A program made the position numbers and the translations under genes. A model generated the notes under the pieces. It was given only the letters and a program-made list of their open reading frames with translations, searched no databases and had not been told where the DNA came from. DNA of 57,462 nucleotides from Candidatus Kapaibacterium sp. (GTDB lineage: Bacteria; Bacteroidota; Ignavibacteria; Kapaibacteriales; UBA2268): assembly GCA_026418625.1 (NCBI GenBank), contig JAOABA010000026.1, positions 1-57,462 on the forward strand, read 5' to 3'. Positions 12,633 to 34,389 of this stretch are shown here, piece after piece (positions within the stretch are counted from its first letter, which is position 1; each line of letters opens with the position of its first letter).

Positions 12633-13712
12633 TTATTTAAAAAATACGAACTTCTTCAAAATTGATTTGTTTTGAGAACTAATCTTTAATAAATAGACTC
12701 CGTCAGGCAGATTTAGAGCATCAAAATGAATTTCATTATTAGATTTTTGTAATTCATTACCTGAATAGTTTAAAATAATATTTCCTAACAAATTATAAAT
12801 CATAATGTCAGTAATCGGCATATTTGAAGGATTAAATTGAAATCTTAATGAATTATCAGATTGAAAAATAATTGATACATCAGTTTCATCTAATCTTTGT
12901 CCATCAACTTCAAGTTCTATGTTGCTTAACTGATATACCATCCACCAAAAAGCTTTTGCTATTCTGATTGAGCCTGTCCAGTTTGGATGGCACGCTTGTG
13001 CCCCCGGTTGCTGCTCACCGCAAAATGGCTTATAAGCAATTTCCCAACCATTGGAATTTACTTGATAATTTCCATTCTCGTCGTAGCACTGCATATCAGC
13101 AATATCAAATAAAATTTTGTTGTTTTGTTTAACATAATTTCTAATCATATTATTTAATGTGTCAGTGCAAAGTTGCCCAACTTGTGTCAAAGGAATACTC
13201 CACCAGACAAAAATTTTATTCGGGTATTTTTTTTCTAAAAATTCCATTTTATCCCTCAAATAATTCCATGCTTTTTGAACCGACTTGAAATCTTTGTCAC
13301 AGGGTTCTTGAAGACCATCCAAACCATCGAGATAACAATATTTGAAGGAGAATATATCAAAATCGTTCAATTGATTTTGGACTTCAGTAACGAAATCATC
13401 AACTTTGCCATACCATCCGGAATTTCCACGAGCTTGACATTGGAAATTACGACGGTCATATTTATACGGAGGGTAGTTTTTGCATTCTGCAGGATTATTT
13501 CTTGTTCCTTGCAAACAGTCTAAAGCATTATTGATTGTTGTTCCAACCGAAGCGTGACGAAACATAACTCTTAGTTTCGCTAAATCTGGCAGAACTGCCT
13601 CAGGTATTGATTCAAACTTCTGGATGCAAGTATGGTCAATAATAATTGGCTTTGAGGAATATAAAGAAGTAAAAGATAATATGACAACAAAAAAGTAAAT
13701 CAAAATTTTCAT
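12633..13712 (-). CDS. Secreted SGNH-hydrolase-like protein with T9SS domain
   Basis: The product is 359 residues from ATG 13712, which has GAGG at 13718-13721; the longer frame from 13739 adds nine residues before the signal peptide MKILIYFFVVILSFTSLYS. The middle has patterns of an SGNH/GDSL-like esterase fold: MFRHASVGTTI near the start, FVWWSIPLTQ in the core and ACHPNWTG near the end, where the family usually has its Asp-x-x-His block. Many cysteines suggest disulfides. The last 80 or so residues are a T9SS sorting domain (IMIYNLLGNIILNYSG, LPDGVYLLKI). Substrate unknown; the hydrolase assignment is moderate. Confidence 0.6.
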   Translation of the reverse strand: MKILIYFFVVILSFTSLYSSKPIIIDHTCIQKFESIPEAVLPDLAKLRVMFRHASVGTTINNALDCLQGTRNNPAECKNYPPYKYDRRNFQCQARGNSGWYGKVDDFVTEVQNQLNDFDIFSFKYCYLDGLDGLQEPCDKDFKSVQKAWNYLRDKMEFLEKKYPNKIFVWWSIPLTQVGQLCTDTLNNMIRNYVKQNNKILFDIADMQCYDENGNYQVNSNGWEIAYKPFCGEQQPGAQACHPNWTGSIRIAKAFWWMVYQLSNIELEVDGQRLDETDVSIIFQSDNSLRFQFNPSNMPITDIMIYNLLGNIILNYSGNELQKSNNEIHFDALNLPDGVYLLKISSQNKSILKKFVFFK

Positions 13713-13856
13713 TAGCACCTCAAATATTTCATTTTTCATTATTAAGTAATGTTATAAATTAATTTATGTTACTAATTTATTAAAACTTTTTTACTTTTCC
13801 TTTGTTGTTTATTTTTTTTACTAAGAAAAGATTAAATTTGCAGATTAAATTTTTAA

Positions 13857-26898: not shown

Positions 26899-26926
26899 TT
26901 AAAATTATCTTAACATAATTTTAACA
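26899..26926 (+). promoter_or_regulatory. Pho-box-like triple direct repeat
   Basis: TTAAAA (26899-26904), TTAACA (26910-26915) and TTAACA (26921-26926) recur every 11 bp, 80 bp before the TonB receptor gene. PhoB/PhoP-type regulators bind 11-bp direct repeats; TTAACA with 4-6 bp spacing is the Bacillus PhoP form. The AT-rich context lowers certainty, but similar pairs precede the next gene. Confidence 0.5.
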
Positions 26927-27005
26927 GATAATTTATTTCCAGTTCATATTTCAGAGGCAATTTTGCAATTGGTAAATTATAAATAATTTATTTTTTGGGT
27001 GAAAT

Positions 27006-29882
27006 ATGGATTTCTACTATCAAAGAAAGACAGTAATAGCTGTCTTTATTTTATTTTTATTTTTTTCTGTAAGCCAATTATTATTGGCTAATACAGGAAG
27101 TATATCAGGGAAGGTCGTCGATTCTGAATCAGGAACCCCACTCAGAAGTGCAACAATTATGGTGAAAGATACTAAGTTAGGAGCATTTTCTGATGTTAAA
27201 GGTGAATATAAATTACGTAATCTTAAACCCGGTGTTTATTCTCTAAAAGTCAGTTATGTTGGGTATGTTCCCAAAGAAATAGAAAACATTGAAGTTCCTT
27301 CAGCACAGGAAGTTAATATCACAGTCGTTCTTCAACCAGAATCCAAGATGACAGAAGAGGTTATCGTTGATGCCGTAAGGCTAAATGATAATCAAGCAGC
27401 AATTTTAGCAATGAGGAAAAATGCTTCTAACGTTAGCGATGGAATAAGCATTGAAGAAATAAAAAAACTACCTGATTCTGACGCAGGACAGTCATTGAAA
27501 AGAGTAACCGGAGTAACACTCGTTGATAATAAATTTATTTACATTAGAGGTGTGAGTGAGCGATATAGTAATACTACCCTTAATGGTGCTGCTGTTACTA
27601 CAACCGAGCCAGACAAGAAGGCTTTCTCCTATGATATTTTTCCCTCAGACTTGCTCGAAAATGTTAGTGTAGTTAAATCTTTCACCCCAGATTTACCCGG
27701 AAACTTTGCTGGAGGGCTTGTTCAGCTAAACACAACTAATTTTCCGGATAGGTTCAGCTTAAAATTTTCCACATCAACAAGCTTTAATACAAACGTAACA
27801 GGAAAATCAGATGCATTTATCTACTCACCCGGTGGCTCTACTGATTGGCTTGGTTTTGATGATGGCACAAGAGCTTTACCCGCTGATTTTCCATCAAATC
27901 GTCGTGAAATTGACCAATTGAGAACAAGTGCTTATAATCCATACGATACAACTGGAGCTAAAGATAAATATGAAGCGATAGCAAGAAAATTCAATTCAAA
28001 GTCTTGGCGACAAGATAGGAAAACAATTGGACCACTTGATAACAGAAGCTTTGGTATCAGCTTTTCGAACGCTTATGATATTGCTGAGGATAGTAGATTT
28101 GGCGTTATTAGCTCACTAAATTATGGAAATTCATATTCTTTGAACACCCTTGAAAGAAACAGATTAACATCCAGCGGAAGCGAATTTTATTTAGCTAAAG
28201 GAACACAAGCGACCCGCTCAGTTAATATTGGAGGTTTGCTAAATTTCGCTCTAAAATTAGGTCCAAATCATCAAATTGGCTTTAAAAATGTCTATTCTCG
28301 AAGCGCTGACGACGAGGCTACACAATTGGAAGGTCAGGATGTTGCTTATCAATTTCTTGACTATAAAAACTTCAGCACACATTACACCCAAAAAGAATTA
28401 TATTCCGCACAATTGAATGGAGATCACAATTTATTTTCAAATAATACTTTGGTTGAATGGAGATTTGGCTTTTCAAAATCACATCGCGATGAACCTGATT
28501 ATCGCAGACTTAGATTTGCCAGACAGCTTGCCGATGCACAAGAGAATCCATTTACACCATACGCACCTGAAATAGTATATACAGAATATGGCGATGGAGC
28601 AAGGGTTGGAAGATTTTATTCAAACTTAAACGATAATATTTTCTCTGGGGCTCTTAATTTGACAATTCCAGTTGGACGGTTCAAAATTAAAATTGGCGCA
28701 TTAACCGAAAATAATGAAAGAGACTTTAGCGCAAGGTCATTAACTATTATTACACCTCCTCAAGGTTTGGCTGATGATATAGATTCAATTTTATATGATT
28801 ATAAAAATCCCGATAGAATTTTTGCACCTGAAAATTTCAGAGTAGAAGATGGTTTCAGGATAAGCGAGGATTCTAAGCTAATGGATTCCTATACTGCAAG
28901 CGAAAGCCTTTGGGCTGCCTATCTTATGCTTGATATACCATTCAAAGTTTTGAATCAGGACCTAAGATTCATCGGTGGTGTCAGATATGAAAACAGCCAT
29001 CAGACACTTAATAGTTATATGATTAATGATGAAAAGGTTGAAGTAAATAATATTAATCAAGATTTATTACCTTCAATTAATTTCATTTGGAAAACTGATG
29101 AATTAACTAATTTAAGATTATCATACTCAAGAACATTAACAAGACCAACGTTCAGGGAATATGCACCATTTGCATTTTTCGACTTTCTAACTCAATATTT
29201 AGTCAGAGGAAACCCAAGCCTTGTTCGTGCTTTGATTGACAATTATGATCTAAGGTATGAACTTTTCCCACAAGTTGGCGAAGTATTTTCTGTTGGGGTA
29301 TTTTACAAAACATTTGAAAACGCAATTGAAGAGACTATATTTCCTCAACAAAGTGAAATTTCAAGAACTTATGATAACGCCAAAGGAAATGCAAGAAATT
29401 ATGGTATTGAATTTGAGTTGAGAAAAAATCTTGGAACAATATTTAGCTTTCTTGAAAACTTCACTGTTAATTTAAATTTAGCTTTAATCAAATCTGAGAT
29501 AACCGTATTACAGGGTGGCAAAGGGACTGAAGATACTCGTCAAATGTGGGGACAATCTCCTTATACATTCAATCTTGGATTATTCTATTATAATCCTGAT
29601 TTTAGAACATCAGTCAATCTTGGCTATAACATTTATGGTAGAAGAATTATACAAGTTGCTCAACAGGGTATTTATACTTTTGAAGACCCGCACATTTATG
29701 AATTACCAAGAAATATAGTTGATTTCTCAATCATTCAACCTGTTTTTTCGAATATGGAACTCAAATTATCAGTCAAAAATCTTCTTAATGAAAAATTGAC
29801 TTATCAGCAGGGCGGAAAAACTGTTGACCTAAACAACTACGGAACTGATATTTCATTTGGTATCAGTTACAAAATTCAGTAA
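27006..29882 (+). CDS. TonB-dependent receptor with carboxypeptidase-regulatory-like domain
   Basis: 958 residues. Signal peptide to about residue 30, then a CarboxypepD_reg-like domain (33-118; GSISGKVVDSESGTPLRSAT, VSYVGYVPKEI), a plug domain (about 125-250; DAGQSLKRVTGVTL, IRGVSERYSNTTLNGA), and a 22-strand barrel to the C-terminus (ISYKIQ). The plug sequence resembles receptors of the general siderophore/phosphorus type, so the ligand is open. Pho-box-like repeats lie upstream, and a secreted beta-rich protein gene plus arsC and arsM follow. A phosphate-compound receptor is my inference. A strong terminator hairpin follows, with separate control of the next gene. Confidence 0.9.
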   Translation: MDFYYQRKTVIAVFILFLFFSVSQLLLANTGSISGKVVDSESGTPLRSATIMVKDTKLGAFSDVKGEYKLRNLKPGVYSLKVSYVGYVPKEIENIEVPSAQEVNITVVLQPESKMTEEVIVDAVRLNDNQAAILAMRKNASNVSDGISIEEIKKLPDSDAGQSLKRVTGVTLVDNKFIYIRGVSERYSNTTLNGAAVTTTEPDKKAFSYDIFPSDLLENVSVVKSFTPDLPGNFAGGLVQLNTTNFPDRFSLKFSTSTSFNTNVTGKSDAFIYSPGGSTDWLGFDDGTRALPADFPSNRREIDQLRTSAYNPYDTTGAKDKYEAIARKFNSKSWRQDRKTIGPLDNRSFGISFSNAYDIAEDSRFGVISSLNYGNSYSLNTLERNRLTSSGSEFYLAKGTQATRSVNIGGLLNFALKLGPNHQIGFKNVYSRSADDEATQLEGQDVAYQFLDYKNFSTHYTQKELYSAQLNGDHNLFSNNTLVEWRFGFSKSHRDEPDYRRLRFARQLADAQENPFTPYAPEIVYTEYGDGARVGRFYSNLNDNIFSGALNLTIPVGRFKIKIGALTENNERDFSARSLTIITPPQGLADDIDSILYDYKNPDRIFAPENFRVEDGFRISEDSKLMDSYTASESLWAAYLMLDIPFKVLNQDLRFIGGVRYENSHQTLNSYMINDEKVEVNNINQDLLPSINFIWKTDELTNLRLSYSRTLTRPTFREYAPFAFFDFLTQYLVRGNPSLVRALIDNYDLRYELFPQVGEVFSVGVFYKTFENAIEETIFPQQSEISRTYDNAKGNARNYGIEFELRKNLGTIFSFLENFTVNLNLALIKSEITVLQGGKGTEDTRQMWGQSPYTFNLGLFYYNPDFRTSVNLGYNIYGRRIIQVAQQGIYTFEDPHIYELPRNIVDFSIIQPVFSNMELKLSVKNLLNEKLTYQQGGKTVDLNNYGTDISFGISYKIQ

Positions 29883-29915
29883 GATTTAAAAAATTAACTG
29901 ACATTTTTTAGCAAA

Positions 29916-29955
29916 TTAAGGTGGTAAATATTACCACCTTAATAGCTTTTTAATG
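29916..29955 (+). terminator. Terminator hairpin after the TonB receptor gene
   Basis: Perfect 12-bp stem TTAAGGTGGTAA / TTACCACCTTAA with a 3-base loop (29916-29942), followed by a T-rich stretch. Confidence 0.75.
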
Positions 29956-29959
29956 CTAT

Positions 29960-29976
29960 TTAAACAAGATTTAAAC
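29960..29976 (+). promoter_or_regulatory. Pho-box-like direct repeat (TTAAAC-N5-TTAAAC)
   Basis: TTAAAC at 29960-29965 and 29971-29976, 11-bp period, upstream of the secreted-protein gene at 30088. Same phase length as the repeat before the TonB receptor gene. Confidence 0.4.
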
Positions 29977-30005
29977 AACTAAATTCACAATAGATAAATC
30001 ATAAA

Positions 30006-30022
30006 TTAACAAAGACTTAACC
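30006..30022 (+). promoter_or_regulatory. Pho-box-like direct repeat (TTAACA-N5-TTAACC)
   Basis: TTAACA at 30006-30011 and TTAACC at 30017-30022, 11-bp period, about 65 bp before the start of the secreted-protein gene. It matches the TTAACA-N5-TTAACA pair at 26910. Confidence 0.5.
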
Positions 30023-30087
30023 GCTAAAGAATAAATTGCTATTTCTTTTTAAACAAAATCATTTATTTTTTATTATTGGAGTATTAT

Positions 30088-32127
30088 ATGAATAAAAATC
30101 TAATTACAATTCTATTTTTCTTAATGATGATGCCTTTCTTATTAGAGGCACAAACGCCAACAAGCGTTAAATTAACAAGACCGAATGGAGGCGAAAAGTT
30201 CAGAGCTGGGACATCCGAGGATTTAACTTGGGATACAACCGGAACATATAGAGCAAGATGGACTTTCCAATTTTCGACATCACCAACAGGACCTTGGACA
30301 AATTTGAGTGGAGCAACAAATATTTTGGATAGTGCAGCAAGGAGAGGTCGTTTTGCTGGTGGTATGAGAGTTCCTGCTGTTAGAACAACAACAGGATATG
30401 TTAGAATAGTCCTTGTTAATCCAGATGGAACATTGAATGAAGCTGTTTCTGATATAAATGATGCACCATTTGAAATCGAACAACCGGAAGCTACACGTTC
30501 AGACTCAGTTCTTAAAAATCCTATAAGCACACATGTTAAATTAACAAGCAAGAAAATATACAGCTTAGATGGCTATCTTTATGTTGATGATGGTGGAGTT
30601 CTCGAAATAGAACCCGGAACAATTATTATTGGTGATACAGTTGGTCAAAACTCAGCAATTTGTGTTAATAGAGGTGGAAAAATATTAGCTCAAGGAACAG
30701 CAAGAAATCCAATTGTTATGACAAGCTCAGCACCTCCGGGACAGAGAAGAGGTGGTGACTGGGGTGGCTTACTTATTTGCGGCAAAGCAGCAACAAATCA
30801 TCCGGGTGGTGAAGCAGCTCTTGAGGGTGGTATTGCCGATGGTAGCACAGTTAGAGTTCGTGGTTGGTTTGGTGGTAAGGATAATCCCGATGAAAATGAC
30901 AATAGTGGTATTATTGAATATGTAAGAATTGAATTTGCAGGTATAGCTGCAGCACCAAACTCAGAATTAAACTCATTGACAATGGGTGCAGTTGGACGTG
31001 GAACAACAATTAATCATGTTTGCGTTACTTATGCTAATGATGATGCTTATGAATGGTTCGGTGGAACAGTTAACGCAAAATATTTAGTATCAGCAGGAAC
31101 ACTTGACGACGACTGGGATTGCGATAACGGTTACAGTGGAAGAATCCAATTTGCAGTTGCTCAAAGATTTAAAGAAAGAGGCGACGTTTCCACAAGTCAG
31201 GCTTTCGAAATTGATAATGATGCAGCAGGTTCTTATAATAAACCTTACACAACTGTTCTCTTTTCGAATATGACAGCTATCGGTCCTCTTGCTGATACAA
31301 GTTGGACTGCAACTGCTACAGGTTCTGGCGAAAGAAATTATAGTAGAAATTTTGGAGCAGGTGCTCAATTGAGAAGAAATGCCCGTGCTTCAATCTTTAA
31401 TTCGCTTTTCCTCGGATGGCCCCGTGGTATTGAATTGCTCAGCACTGGAACTCAAACTGCTGCCGGAAATGATTCTCTTATGATAAGAAATTCTTATTGG
31501 TATGGGGTAAAAGGTCAGGTTCTTAGACTTGATGGAACAACACCAGCTATTCCTGCTGATTGGCTTCTAAATCCTGCTTTCAATAATTTCGTGGATGCTG
31601 AAAGACCACAAAAAGCTATGCTGACAAATCCCTTTGTCATCGGAAATGATTTTAATCCAGTTCCAATGGCAACTGCTTCTTATCTTAACAAAGCTTCGTT
31701 CGTTGGTAATGCTGTAGTGAAAATTGATGATCCTTTCTTTGCAAAAGTTAACTATGTTGGTGCTTTTGAACCAGACATTGCTAAGAGATGGGATCTTCCT
31801 TGGTGCGAATATGACCCGATTAATAAAGCTTATATCCCAACATCAGTAGATGAAGACCAAGTTGAAGAACCATCAATCAAAATTACACCAAACCCAGTGT
31901 CATCATTCGCAACTGTCTTATATAATATTACAAGAGACGACAACGTTCAAATTAGAATAATTAACCCATCCGGTGCTTTAGTTAGCACAATAGCATCAAA
32001 TAGATTCCAAACCGAAGGTTATTATGAATTTTCTATTGATGTAAATCAAATTCCAAGTGGAGTTTATTTCGTCCAGATTATTACATCAAACGGAATTATA
32101 TCCGAGAAATTCACAGTAGTTAAGTAA
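30088..32127 (+). CDS. Secreted beta-rich protein paired with the TonB receptor, T9SS
   Basis: The product is 679 residues from ATG 30088 (TTGGAG at 30076; the frame opens four codons earlier). Signal peptide, then an Ig/Kre9-like module (about 25-125; LTRPNGGEKFRAGTSEDLTW), then a repetitive domain of about 450 residues with many Gly/Asn/Asp turns (GGVLEIEPGTIIIGDTVG, ARNPIVMTSSAPPGQRRGGD, GGDWGGLLICG), which looks like a right-handed parallel beta-helix. It ends with a T9SS sorting domain (IKITPNPVSSFATVL, IPSGVYFVQI). The beta-helix core is a surface ligand-binding or enzyme candidate working with the receptor upstream. Direct repeats in both promoters suggest co-regulation. Confidence 0.75.
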   Translation: MNKNLITILFFLMMMPFLLEAQTPTSVKLTRPNGGEKFRAGTSEDLTWDTTGTYRARWTFQFSTSPTGPWTNLSGATNILDSAARRGRFAGGMRVPAVRTTTGYVRIVLVNPDGTLNEAVSDINDAPFEIEQPEATRSDSVLKNPISTHVKLTSKKIYSLDGYLYVDDGGVLEIEPGTIIIGDTVGQNSAICVNRGGKILAQGTARNPIVMTSSAPPGQRRGGDWGGLLICGKAATNHPGGEAALEGGIADGSTVRVRGWFGGKDNPDENDNSGIIEYVRIEFAGIAAAPNSELNSLTMGAVGRGTTINHVCVTYANDDAYEWFGGTVNAKYLVSAGTLDDDWDCDNGYSGRIQFAVAQRFKERGDVSTSQAFEIDNDAAGSYNKPYTTVLFSNMTAIGPLADTSWTATATGSGERNYSRNFGAGAQLRRNARASIFNSLFLGWPRGIELLSTGTQTAAGNDSLMIRNSYWYGVKGQVLRLDGTTPAIPADWLLNPAFNNFVDAERPQKAMLTNPFVIGNDFNPVPMATASYLNKASFVGNAVVKIDDPFFAKVNYVGAFEPDIAKRWDLPWCEYDPINKAYIPTSVDEDQVEEPSIKITPNPVSSFATVLYNITRDDNVQIRIINPSGALVSTIASNRFQTEGYYEFSIDVNQIPSGVYFVQIITSNGIISEKFTVVK

Positions 32128-32153
32128 TTTTAAAAGAAATATTTCCTCTCAAG

Positions 32154-32190
32154 AAGGGGCTACTTGATAAAGGTAGCCCCTTAATAATTT
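32154..32190 (+). terminator. Terminator-like hairpin
   Basis: 10-bp stem AAGGGGCTAC / GTAGCCCCTT with a 9-base loop (32154-32182), then an AT-rich tail. It separates the secreted-protein gene from arsC. Confidence 0.7.
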
Positions 32191-32234
32191 TAATATTTAA
32201 CAAACGTTTCTTTCAACTTTAGGAACAATATTTT

Positions 32235-32660
32235 ATGAATATATTAATTCTTTGCACAGGAAATTCTTGCAGAAGCCAAATGGGCGAAGCGTTTATGCGA
32301 TCTTTTGATCCAAGGCTAAACGTCTTTTCAGCAGGAACAAAACCCGCATTGAAAGTTAACCCTTTTGCAGTAAAAGCAATGTCAGAAATTGGAATTGACA
32401 TTAGCTCTTATTATCCGAAAGATGTAGAAGAATTTATATCACAATCATTTGACTATGTTATAACTGTTTGTGATAATGCAAAAGAAACCTGCCCTGTTTT
32501 TGTTGGCGAAGTTAATCAAAGAGTTCATATTGGTTTTGAAGATCCTGCTGATGCTACTGGGACAGATGAAGAAATTACTTCAGTTTTCAGAAAAGTTAGG
32601 GATGAAATCAAAAGAGATTTTTATGAATTTTATATTAATAATATCAAGGATAAATTGTGA
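32235..32660 (+). CDS. arsC: Thioredoxin-coupled arsenate reductase
   Basis: 141 residues of the low-molecular-weight phosphatase fold. P-loop C7TGNSCR, and the redox pair C79 and C86 (TVCDNAKETC), as in the Staphylococcus/Bacillus ArsC type; C79 and C86 attack in turn before thioredoxin restores the enzyme. It reduces arsenate to arsenite in the cytoplasm. The stop overlaps the GTG start of arsM (GTGA at 32657), so the two are translationally coupled. No arsR or ars efflux gene is adjacent; detoxification therefore runs through methylation. Confidence 0.95.
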   Translation: MNILILCTGNSCRSQMGEAFMRSFDPRLNVFSAGTKPALKVNPFAVKAMSEIGIDISSYYPKDVEEFISQSFDYVITVCDNAKETCPVFVGEVNQRVHIGFEDPADATGTDEEITSVFRKVRDEIKRDFYEFYINNIKDKL

Positions 32661-33445
32661 ATAATCTTGATTTAAAAAAAGTTGTTAAAGAGAAATATTC
32701 TGAGATAGCATCTCTGCCAATTATTTCTAATTCCTGCTGTGGATCGGATTATTCATCTGATTTTACAGTGATGAAAGATGATTATACTAATATTGATGGT
32801 TATTTCAATGAAGCTGACCTTGGACTTGGTTGCGGAATACCAACTGAATTTGCTGACATTAACAAAGGGGATTTTGTTTTGGATCTTGGCTCAGGTGCAG
32901 GGAATGATGTTTTTATAGCAAGAAGGCAAACCGGTGAAAAAGGAAAAGTTGTCGGGCTTGATATGACCGAAAAGATGATTGAGAAAGCAAATATCAATAA
33001 GCATAAACTTGGCTTTGAAAATGTTGAATTTGTTCTCGGTGATATTGAGCAAATGCCTTTTGGGGAAAATATCTTTGATGTTGTGATTAGCAATTGTGTT
33101 CTTAATTTAGTTCCAAATAAAGAAAAAGCCTTCTCTGAAATATACCGTGTTTTAAAAGCCGGTGGACATTTTTGTATATCTGACATAGTAACCGAAGGAA
33201 TTTTGCCTGAAAAGTTGCAAGAAGTTGCAACCCTTTATGTCGGATGTGTTTCAGGAGCACTTACTAAGGCAAAATATCTCGATATTGTTCAAAAGACCGG
33301 TTTTAATAATATTCAAATCAGAAAAGAAAAGCAAATTGATATTCCGGATGCTGTTTATCTTAAATACCTTGATAAAACTGAATTTGAAAACTTTAAAAAA
33401 CAAGGTATAAATATTAAAAGTATTACATTAACTGCTCAAAAGTAG
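32657..33445 (+). CDS. arsM: Arsenite S-adenosylmethionine methyltransferase
   Basis: 262 residues, GTG start. Motif I is LDLGSGAGND (76-85). Cysteines C59, C147 and C197 match the three arsenic-binding cysteines of ArsM; the last two keep the 50-residue spacing of the Cyanidioschyzon enzyme. It converts arsenite to methylated, partly volatile products using AdoMet. Together with arsC it turns arsenate entering by phosphate uptake into exportable forms. The 3' end overlaps by 10 bp the convergent LpxR-like gene. SCCG near residue 26-29 adds cysteines that may also bind arsenic. Confidence 0.93.
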   Translation: MNNLDLKKVVKEKYSEIASLPIISNSCCGSDYSSDFTVMKDDYTNIDGYFNEADLGLGCGIPTEFADINKGDFVLDLGSGAGNDVFIARRQTGEKGKVVGLDMTEKMIEKANINKHKLGFENVEFVLGDIEQMPFGENIFDVVISNCVLNLVPNKEKAFSEIYRVLKAGGHFCISDIVTEGILPEKLQEVATLYVGCVSGALTKAKYLDIVQKTGFNNIQIRKEKQIDIPDAVYLKYLDKTEFENFKKQGINIKSITLTAQK

Positions 33446-34389
33446 ATTCTTAATTTAAGTGACGCCCAGAATGTGTTTTTTGCATCCTTGAACTCCGATG
33501 TCCTAATTGAATTACTATAGTCCACTTCAATATCATATATATTGATTTTTAGACCGTATTCTCCGTTGAAGTAAAATCTGTTAATATTGTCAGTTGGAAT
33601 GGTATAGATACTACTCCGATTGAAAATACCTCCCTGCAGTAAAGAGTTATAAACTACAAAACGGACAAAAGAATCAAAATAAATATAATAAGCAACGCTT
33701 GTTTTCTTATCTTTAGCAATTTTTAAGTCATAAAACCTGCCAATTTTAAAATTTGCACCTAATCCAAATTCATTTACCAATGTTCCAGCATTGAAATCAA
33801 TAAGAACTGATGTATTTATAAATTCTGGCAGAACTTCATAAAAGATGGAATTTTCGAATCTGTTATAGAAGTTTAAAATAACATCAGTAGATAGTTGATT
33901 ATCCCATCCTTGAGGTATAGGTGATTTGAACCATTGACGATGGAGAAATGTTTGCAATTCTTTTCCAAGAGCATATTTACCTATAAAACCTATTGATAAA
34001 CGGCTTAAAAGTTTTTGCCTTAAGACATAGTTAGATGAAGATTTAGAAAGTGATAGATAAAATAAACCGGCATAAGGGCGATCATCACGTAATATTGTAT
34101 CAGCGCTTATATTCGAAGGGGTAAAAAGTTTGTGTGTTAAACCTATTGAATAATTTTCTTCATTTTTATCAAGAGAAAAGAGAAAATCATTGAGAAAAAA
34201 TTCGGGTGTTTCTGATTTTGGAAAAGTCAGGTTTAATTCAGTTCCGTAAGTGTAATACCTGTCATAATTTTTTCCAATTGAGAAAGCATCATTGTCAACA
34301 ACAATTTGAAGAGAGTATTTATCATCAATGGAGAAGGCATAAAAAGCTGAAACAAAGAAAATTGCGAATGCTATTAACTTTTTACTCAT
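33436..34389 (-). CDS. LpxR-family lipid A deacylase (DUF2219)
   Basis: 317-residue outer-membrane barrel with a signal peptide (1-20). DUF2219 signatures: VVDNDAFSIGKNYDRYYTYG, DDRPYAGLFYLS, GKELQTFLHRQW and PQGWDNQL, which supply the Asn-Asp, Thr, His and Gln/Glu positions of the LpxR active site. It ends in LKLRIYF, a BAM signal. LpxR removes the 3'-acyloxyacyl chain of lipid A at the outer surface. This complements the lpxC/fabZ-lpxA operon in the same window. Convergent 10-bp overlap with arsM. Exact cleavage specificity cannot be told. Confidence 0.88.
   Translation of the reverse strand: MSKKLIAFAIFFVSAFYAFSIDDKYSLQIVVDNDAFSIGKNYDRYYTYGTELNLTFPKSETPEFFLNDFLFSLDKNEENYSIGLTHKLFTPSNISADTILRDDRPYAGLFYLSLSKSSSNYVLRQKLLSRLSIGFIGKYALGKELQTFLHRQWFKSPIPQGWDNQLSTDVILNFYNRFENSIFYEVLPEFINTSVLIDFNAGTLVNEFGLGANFKIGRFYDLKIAKDKKTSVAYYIYFDSFVRFVVYNSLLQGGIFNRSSIYTIPTDNINRFYFNGEYGLKINIYDIEVDYSNSIRTSEFKDAKNTFWASLKLRIYF

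Follow-up and report, generated by a model that had tools for sequence, protein, structure and literature searches.

A TonB receptor and a T9SS-tailed, predicted beta-helix protein behind a predicted PhoB-type box, with arsC-arsM as neighbours, in a genome of the Bacteroidota

The PhoP box of Bacillus subtilis is built of TTAACA-like hexamers at 11-bp steps, and the Escherichia coli Pho box likewise consists of direct repeats. Among the genes induced by phosphate starvation in Caulobacter is that for ElpS, which is encoded beside the TonB receptor CC0171 (PMC2996285). In phosphate-starved Flavobacterium johnsoniae, the receptor Fjoh_0545 and the FII lipoprotein Fjoh_0546, clustered with phoB, phoR, OprP and a glycosyltransferase, show fold changes of 8.02 and 9.91, respectively (log2 according to the text; Lidbury and others, PMC8115612). 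According to the same source, FI is the most abundant exoprotein under these conditions, and FI to FIII resemble the Caulobacter lipoprotein; FII-type proteins are among the most strongly induced (PMC8115612) and are not known to have an activity. Here we analyse a related arrangement in the 57,462-nucleotide contig JAOABA010000026.1 (contig C40; "the window" refers to this whole stretch), part of a 3.3-Mb assembly of 58 contigs, 96% complete, whose host we infer to be an Ignavibacteria-like member of the Bacteroidota. A TonB-dependent receptor gene and a gene for a secreted protein ("the pair") lie behind an 11-bp direct repeat ("the box") and are followed by arsC and arsM.

We take the pair for a phosphate-starvation scavenging system of a known kind, behind a predicted PhoB-type box, and put the probability of this reading at about 0.83. 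We do so because the box is conserved, the two partners recur together, phosphate genes lie beside them in relatives and homologues are induced by low phosphate in published work. The elements concerned are as follows.

26899-26926, + strand: three-unit 11-bp box TTAAAA-N5-TTAACA-N5-TTAACA, a predicted PhoB-type response-regulator site, conserved in relatives
27006-29882, + strand: TonB-dependent receptor, 958 amino acids, with a carboxypeptidase-regulatory-like N-terminal domain, plug and beta-barrel
30088-32127, + strand: secreted protein of the ElpS/FII family, 679 amino acids, with an N-terminal beta-rich region, a predicted parallel beta-helix and a type IX secretion system (T9SS) type A tail
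30493-31794, + strand: predicted right-handed parallel beta-helix core (model residues 113-546; AlphaFold2 and structure alignment)
31888-32118, + strand: T9SS type A C-terminal sorting domain (PF18962, 40.7 bits; TIGR04183, 40.4 bits; both over the cut-off)

A sequence-only reading of this DNA had called the receptor, the T9SS protein, an ArsC-like protein and ArsM, and all four calls held. It had also claimed TTAAAA/TTAACA words at 11-bp steps before the receptor. These are present: TTAAAA, TTAACA and TTAACA, separated by TTATC and TAATT, with the receptor ATG (27006) 79 bp downstream. It is the comparison with relatives that makes the window box clearly non-random. From 60 fetched loci of relatives, receptor homologues were picked out by clustering; the 50 cluster members, less the window's own and one of at most 850 amino acids, left 48 receptor genes. 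In 29 of these 48, the best repeat at a spacing of 11 reaches at least 15 of 18 positions. At every other spacing from 6 to 24 only 0-2 receptors reach this score, except for 10 at spacing 22, which is twice 11. The background is 0.15 per shuffled set and 2.0% of 748 other genes, giving an enrichment p of about 2e-29; this and the other p-values for box conservation ignore kinship between genomes. Since T or G had been admitted at the first place of the word after the relatives were inspected, plain TTAACA and a set of named genomes were used as controls. With unmodified TTAACA, a score of 14 of 18 is attained at spacing 11 by 30 of the 48 receptors; the other spacings from 7 to 24 give 0-2 receptors, and spacing 22 gives 13. 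The named set comprises 80 loci, the best 80 of at least 591, many of them cut by contig ends; it is nearly but not fully independent, locus L320 being the same as one training locus. By the full matrix, 52 of 64 receptors in this set lie above the 95th percentile (8.6% of 418 other genes do), and the named Flavobacterium loci (L247-L249) carry the box before the receptor. When a matrix was trained on the 28 loci that lie outside this order, 17 of the 20 loci within the window's order scored higher than the 95th percentile of 720 other genes, with the window box at 98.3%; with the three-unit matrix, the window box stands at the 98.6th percentile of other genes. These counts support the prediction that a box conserved widely across the phylum precedes this receptor family and behaves as a PhoB-type box, in line with the earlier use of 11-bp direct repeats as the mark of PhoB-type binding. 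An open-access literature search for a Bacteroidota Pho box found only the Riemerella PhoP motif considered below.

The position of the box relative to the promoter is also regular. The -7 element of Bacteroidota has the consensus TAnnTTTG (PMC7366714). This octamer lies exactly 9 bp past the third unit in 15 of 41 unnamed boxes and 9 of 42 named ones, and 8 of the 10 remaining perfect copies lie at 20, 31 or 42 bp, that is, at 9+11n. The octamer in register in the window, TATTTCAG, matches at four of six places (read by eye), and the layout is therefore degenerate in the window.

Within the window alone the excess of two-unit words is only modest: there are four matches with at most one mismatch against 1.26 expected, and 5 of 100 shuffles reach four. 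The window box is the sole three-unit site with one mismatch in the genome, and four others have two. One of these four adjoins the 5′ side of the best PhoB-like gene (contig C10, 80600-81265), in the opposite direction. Another lies in the window on the minus strand (13767-13794), just 5′ of the gene for a T9SS-tailed protein (12633-13739).

The receptor gene is found within two genes of a secreted-protein gene in 44 of the 60 relatives' loci, the window not being counted. Clustering missed the secreted-protein gene in 3 of the remaining 16, and 12 are copies from genus g71, which has up to four secreted-protein copies per genome. Among the 80 named loci, the two genes are immediate neighbours in 63. 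As for the pair recurring beside pho genes, which the sequence-only reading had proposed to check, it does so in some relatives. PhoB-PhoR-like neighbours are present in four fetched loci (L094, L095, L096, L114), and phoB-phoR-like genes lie beside the pair in Flavobacterium micromati (L247), F. fontis (L248) and a Flavobacterium metagenome-assembled genome (named set). The order in L248 and L249 is glycosyltransferase, phoR, phoB, receptor, secreted protein, and L247 has the last four; in these genes the loci resemble the published cluster Fjoh_0541 to 0546. Elsewhere the pair is contiguous with pst-phoU genes (L081-L083, families checked in L083) or lies near PhoX and a MauG-like gene (L068) or near polyphosphate kinase and exopolyphosphatase (L094). 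Of the 80 named loci, 11 have PhoB-like genes, 11 PhoR-like genes, 6 the acyltransferase fusion and 5 a calcineurin-like phosphoesterase, and 26 have at least one phosphate-linked query gene within about 6 kb. A separate observation is an exopolyphosphatase-type (Ppx/GppA) gene near the pair in 9 of the 60 fetched loci (L059-L064, L070, L072 and L094; one family-checked).

The box is also found before other genes. In the window's own genome, the gene for a PHO4 phosphate transporter has an exact TTAACA-N5-TTAACA 46 bp upstream. The site of phoA stands at the 97.8th percentile; 45 bp separate it from the ATG, and TACTTTTG follows 10 bp downstream. The phoX match lies at a contig end, starting at base 77. 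Among the order's 15 other PHO4 genes, a spacing of 11 yields 4 with scores of 11 of 12 or more, and each other spacing from 7 to 19 yields 0 or 1. In the relatives' loci, which were chosen for presence of the pair, boxes precede PhoX (L068), the pst operon of L083 (366 bp 5′ of pstS), an acyltransferase-GNAT fusion of the ornithine-lipid synthesis type (L072, L079, L080), a glycosyltransferase (L092) and FIII-like orphan genes; strong boxes also precede secreted-protein homologues (L065, L073, L088, L097-L099, L105). The pstS genes of the order, found in 57 of 80 genomes (28 of 30 returned loci were used, two being dropped as truncated), carry a different 11-bp element. GTTACC-N5-GTAACA precedes 17 of the 28, and at other spacings from 6 to 21 the count is 0-2; since one pstS set served both to discover and to count it, the spacing control alone is independent. 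It lies about 95-165 bp upstream of the matched pstS start (L173-L196) and can also be read as an inverted repeat.

The secreted protein was described in the sequence-only reading as an undescribed surface partner of the receptor, a claim that does not hold, the family having been published as ElpS in Caulobacter and as FI/FII/FIII in Flavobacterium. Homologues of its core occur in 196 of 296 genomes sampled from the phylum and in 113 of 140 genera (E ≤ 1e-10); 19 of 29 fetched homologues were aligned and are 41-63% identical. To the FII-like protein of L096, encoded beside phoB-phoR-like genes, the window core is 37% identical over 479 columns (E 6e-79). Homologues also lie on proteobacterial plasmids (31-41% identity among the 15 records listed, of 21 in all). 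That of the alphaproteobacterium Indioceanicola profundi has a TonB receptor directly after it, along with genes for type II secretion, as ElpS does, and a second one inspected also precedes a TonB receptor; for a third, from Marinobacter, no TonB receptor is annotated within 6 kb in an incomplete gene table. Two Flavobacterium-type FII-like homologues start with a lipobox-like stretch, whereas the window protein has a T9SS tail instead. Judged by these sequence features, it is an anchoring variant that departs from the lipoprotein attachment of ElpS and FI-FIII, a T9SS-borne form of a described family. The link to ElpS and Fjoh_0546 themselves is by gene order. In relatives of the order the protein is longer, with two tandem beta-helix units in one reading frame in L058-L064 (1,272-1,392 amino acids) and four in L066 and L067 (about 2,315 amino acids).

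No sequence relatives were found in the PDB at E ≤ 1. AlphaFold2, run on the family alignment, predicts a right-handed beta-helix from about residue 113, with a beta-rich region before it, at a predicted local distance difference test score of 90.5. The modelled helix aligns with the solved structure of NosD at Z 22.8 (272 residues, 3.4 Å), with pectate and alginate lyases and polygalacturonases at Z of about 20, and also with alginate epimerases. Foldseek superpositions were poor (query template-modelling scores of 0.11-0.28 over the 50 matches shown) and were set aside; the fold call rests on the AlphaFold2 model and the Z-score alignment. A predicted fold in common with lyases and polygalacturonases would not by itself establish an activity.

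Further features of the region bear on transcription of the pair and on the arsenic genes.

29915-29943, + strand: terminator- or attenuator-like hairpin between the receptor and secreted-protein genes (13-pair stem, T-rich tail)
29960-29976, + strand: TTAAAC pair at 11 bp (29960/29971), at chance level and outside the best matrix sites
30006-30022, + strand: TTAACA/TTAACC pair at 11 bp (30006/30017) with one mismatch, weak (93.9th percentile)
32154-32182, + strand: terminator-like hairpin between the secreted-protein gene and arsC (12-pair stem, 6 G-C, T-rich tail)
32235-32660, + strand: ArsC-like arsenate reductase of the low-molecular-weight phosphatase family, CX5R loop CTGNSCR
32657-33445, + strand: ArsM arsenite methyltransferase (NF008823, 320.8 bits; cut-off 263)

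Six hairpins were found in the region against 4.9 expected in shuffles. The two 11-bp pairs that the sequence-only reading had reported before the secreted-protein gene are indeed there but, taken on their own, are no better than chance; we rejected them as a second box in the window, strong sites at this place being seen in relatives L065 and L073. The ArsC-like protein scores 125.4 of 174.3 bits against the thioredoxin-type model TIGR02691, below the cut-off. On the minus strand, a gene for an LpxR-type outer-membrane protein (33436-34389; PF09982, 178.6 bits) overlaps the end of arsM tail to tail.

On the phosphate-scavenging reading, low phosphate would cause PhoR to phosphorylate a PhoB-like regulator, which would bind the box in place of a -33 element and turn on the receptor gene. 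The secreted-protein gene could then be switched on by read-through or from a weak promoter of its own. The type IX system would carry its product to the cell surface, and there the beta-helix might bind or loosen a phosphorus-containing polymer, or aid phosphatases, the resulting product being taken up through the TonB receptor. Arsenate entering by way of the induced phosphate uptake might be reduced and methylated by the neighbouring arsC-arsM products.

A number of observations weigh against this reading. The exact two-unit word is unenriched genome-wide (5 occurrences, 6 for the reversed control), as are three-unit matches with at most three mismatches (61, 78 for the control), and word enrichment was rejected as support. 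A motif as common in random DNA had been named at the outset as what would refute the idea; the plain genome count does show this, but the conserved position before receptors does not. The best PhoB candidate of the genome falls below the NCBI cut-off (227.6 of 296.2 bits), as does the PhoB-like neighbour in L096 (220.4 bits). Of the 80 named loci, 54 have none of the phosphate-linked genes sought within about 6 kb, and a hairpin stands between the receptor and secreted-protein genes. The proposed search at pst, phoA and phoX turned up the exact PHO4 pair and the weaker phoA box, but no strong box before the genome's own pstS (best 13 of 18), which was rejected as a carrier. The three-unit matrix does no better on the pstS genes of the order (3 of 28 pass, near chance, and this candidate too was dropped); it puts the own PHO4 gene only at the 85th percentile and exceeds the 95th in 2 of the 15 other PHO4 genes. 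Carriers with no evident phosphate link include genes for an outer-membrane barrel protein (L084), a TonB-like protein (L111), an M28 peptidase (L082) and a choice-of-anchor protein (L102). In Caulobacter, CC0171 was reported to be constitutive, and phosphatase activity did not change when ElpS was lost (PMC2996285).

Some of these points would fit a box that serves another OmpR-family regulator, ArcA-, PhoP- or CpxR-like, with the pair answering some other signal. Direct-repeat sites are common to members of this family, and the box could be read by any such protein. A Bacteroidota example is PhoP of Riemerella anatipestifer, which enriches a TTTAACA motif found around 579 of 583 peaks and likened by the authors to that of ArcA (PMC9603813). 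The lack of a clear box at the genome's pstS and the carriers without a phosphate link point the same way. We nevertheless consider this alternative improbable, given that box carriers in loci picked for the pair include the L083 pst operon, PhoX, the acyltransferase fusion and FIII-like orphans, that PHO4 and phoA of the own genome have candidate boxes, and that FII is induced by low phosphate and low-phosphate loci without an assigned function are reported to be tightly repressed under N and Fe limitation (PMC8115612). The pair might instead be an ordinary uptake system for carbohydrate (SusC-like) or iron whose surface enzyme is pectin-lyase-like. This would account for the predicted beta-helix fold, common to pectate and alginate lyases and polygalacturonases, and for the similarity of the receptor to TIGR01782 and SusC. 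The scores fall short of both models, however (267.7 of 310 bits for TIGR01782, TonB-Xanth-Caul; 68 of 368.25 bits for the SusC model TIGR04056), which makes the receptor, by sequence, a relative of TIGR01782 outside that named subfamily. Of the proteins between 25255 and 34389, the other four that were scanned gave no SusD match, and both the gene context and the box indicate phosphate, so that we give such a system very little credence.

The arsenic genes call for separate judgement. Whether the pair is Pho-regulated and arsC-arsM merely an unrelated neighbour with its own promoter, the apparent module being an accident of gene order, is to us an even bet. In the window, and likewise in L066, strong terminator-like hairpins would stop transcription of the pair short of the ars genes, leaving co-transcription unsupported, and arsC has no box of its own (69th percentile); arsC-arsM is probably a separate transcription unit. 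In the order, arsC directly follows the pair, or follows an acr3 gene that comes behind it, in just 3 of 80 genomes including the window (61 arsC places were found, of which 30 were read). Four members of the window's family (G160, G331, G337 and G346; loci L223-L226) have arsC-arsM without the pair in the 1.5 kb read, and neither arsC nor arsM had a match among the 80 named loci that carry the pair (E ≤ 1e-15). An accident is harder to reconcile with the recurrence of the juxtaposition outside the window's family: in G220 (L066) the pair is followed by a hairpin and then acr3-arsC, and in G318 by arsC, both genomes belonging to a different family. Moreover, G192 (L326:4093-9812) has the order pstS-pstC-MIP-arsC-pstA-pstB-phoU, with a MIP channel gene and an arsC homologue inside the pst operon, and G329 (L329:5353-11227) has the same order, the gene before arsC not having been family-checked there. 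Outside genus g12, pst genes flank arsC on both sides in none of the 29 other loci read. In genus g148, arsC lies about 6 kb from pstS in six genomes (from coordinates; one locus read). Gene order thus suggests that arsenate genes came to adjoin phosphate uptake more than once in the order. The earlier placing of arsC-arsM in one module with the pair finds backing in the two relatives with arsC after the pair and the two with arsC inside the pst operon, but not in the hairpins, the boxless arsC or the named loci, and we regard the arsenic part of the module as plausible but unproven.

Taken jointly, the results may describe a phylum-wide phosphate-starvation promoter code, three KTAAYR words at 11 bp with TAnnTTTG 9 bp on, used in much of the Bacteroidota; a receptor/beta-helix pair as its dedicated phosphorus-capturing target, among the most conserved; and arsenate detoxification repeatedly wired into phosphate uptake in the window's order, behind the pair and inside the pst operon. 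That all of this holds together we propose tentatively, at somewhat less than even odds. A readable box with a fixed promoter layout would allow phosphate-regulon calls from sequence in uncultured Bacteroidota. The box points to the receptor/surface-protein pair as a widespread member of that regulon, and the arrangement offers a direct test of arsenic detoxification being tied to phosphate hunger.

Several described systems resemble this locus in part. As with ElpS (CC0170) and CC0171 of Caulobacter crescentus, a secreted protein, induced by phosphate starvation in the case of ElpS, is encoded beside a TonB-dependent receptor (PMC2996285). ElpS, however, is a lipoprotein that requires type II secretion for its release, and its gene comes before that of the receptor (PMC2996285); the window protein, compared with ElpS by description, ends in a T9SS tail and has an additional N-terminal region, and here the receptor gene comes first. 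In this respect the locus is like Fjoh_0545/0546 in the PhoBR cluster (PUSIV) of F. johnsoniae, where a receptor gene is followed by a secreted-protein gene, but unlike in that FII cluster, phoBR of the window genome do not adjoin the pair. The arsenic islands of Halomonas GFAJ-1 have arsenic resistance genes adjoining pst phosphate-uptake genes (PMC5930303), whereas the ars genes here adjoin an outer-membrane receptor pair or, in the case of arsC, lie inside a pst operon. The box shares with those of B. subtilis and E. coli an arrangement of direct repeats, spaced by roughly one helical turn, upstream of phosphate genes, and differs from them in having usually three units, in allowing G in first place and in being followed often by a -7 element 9 bp downstream.

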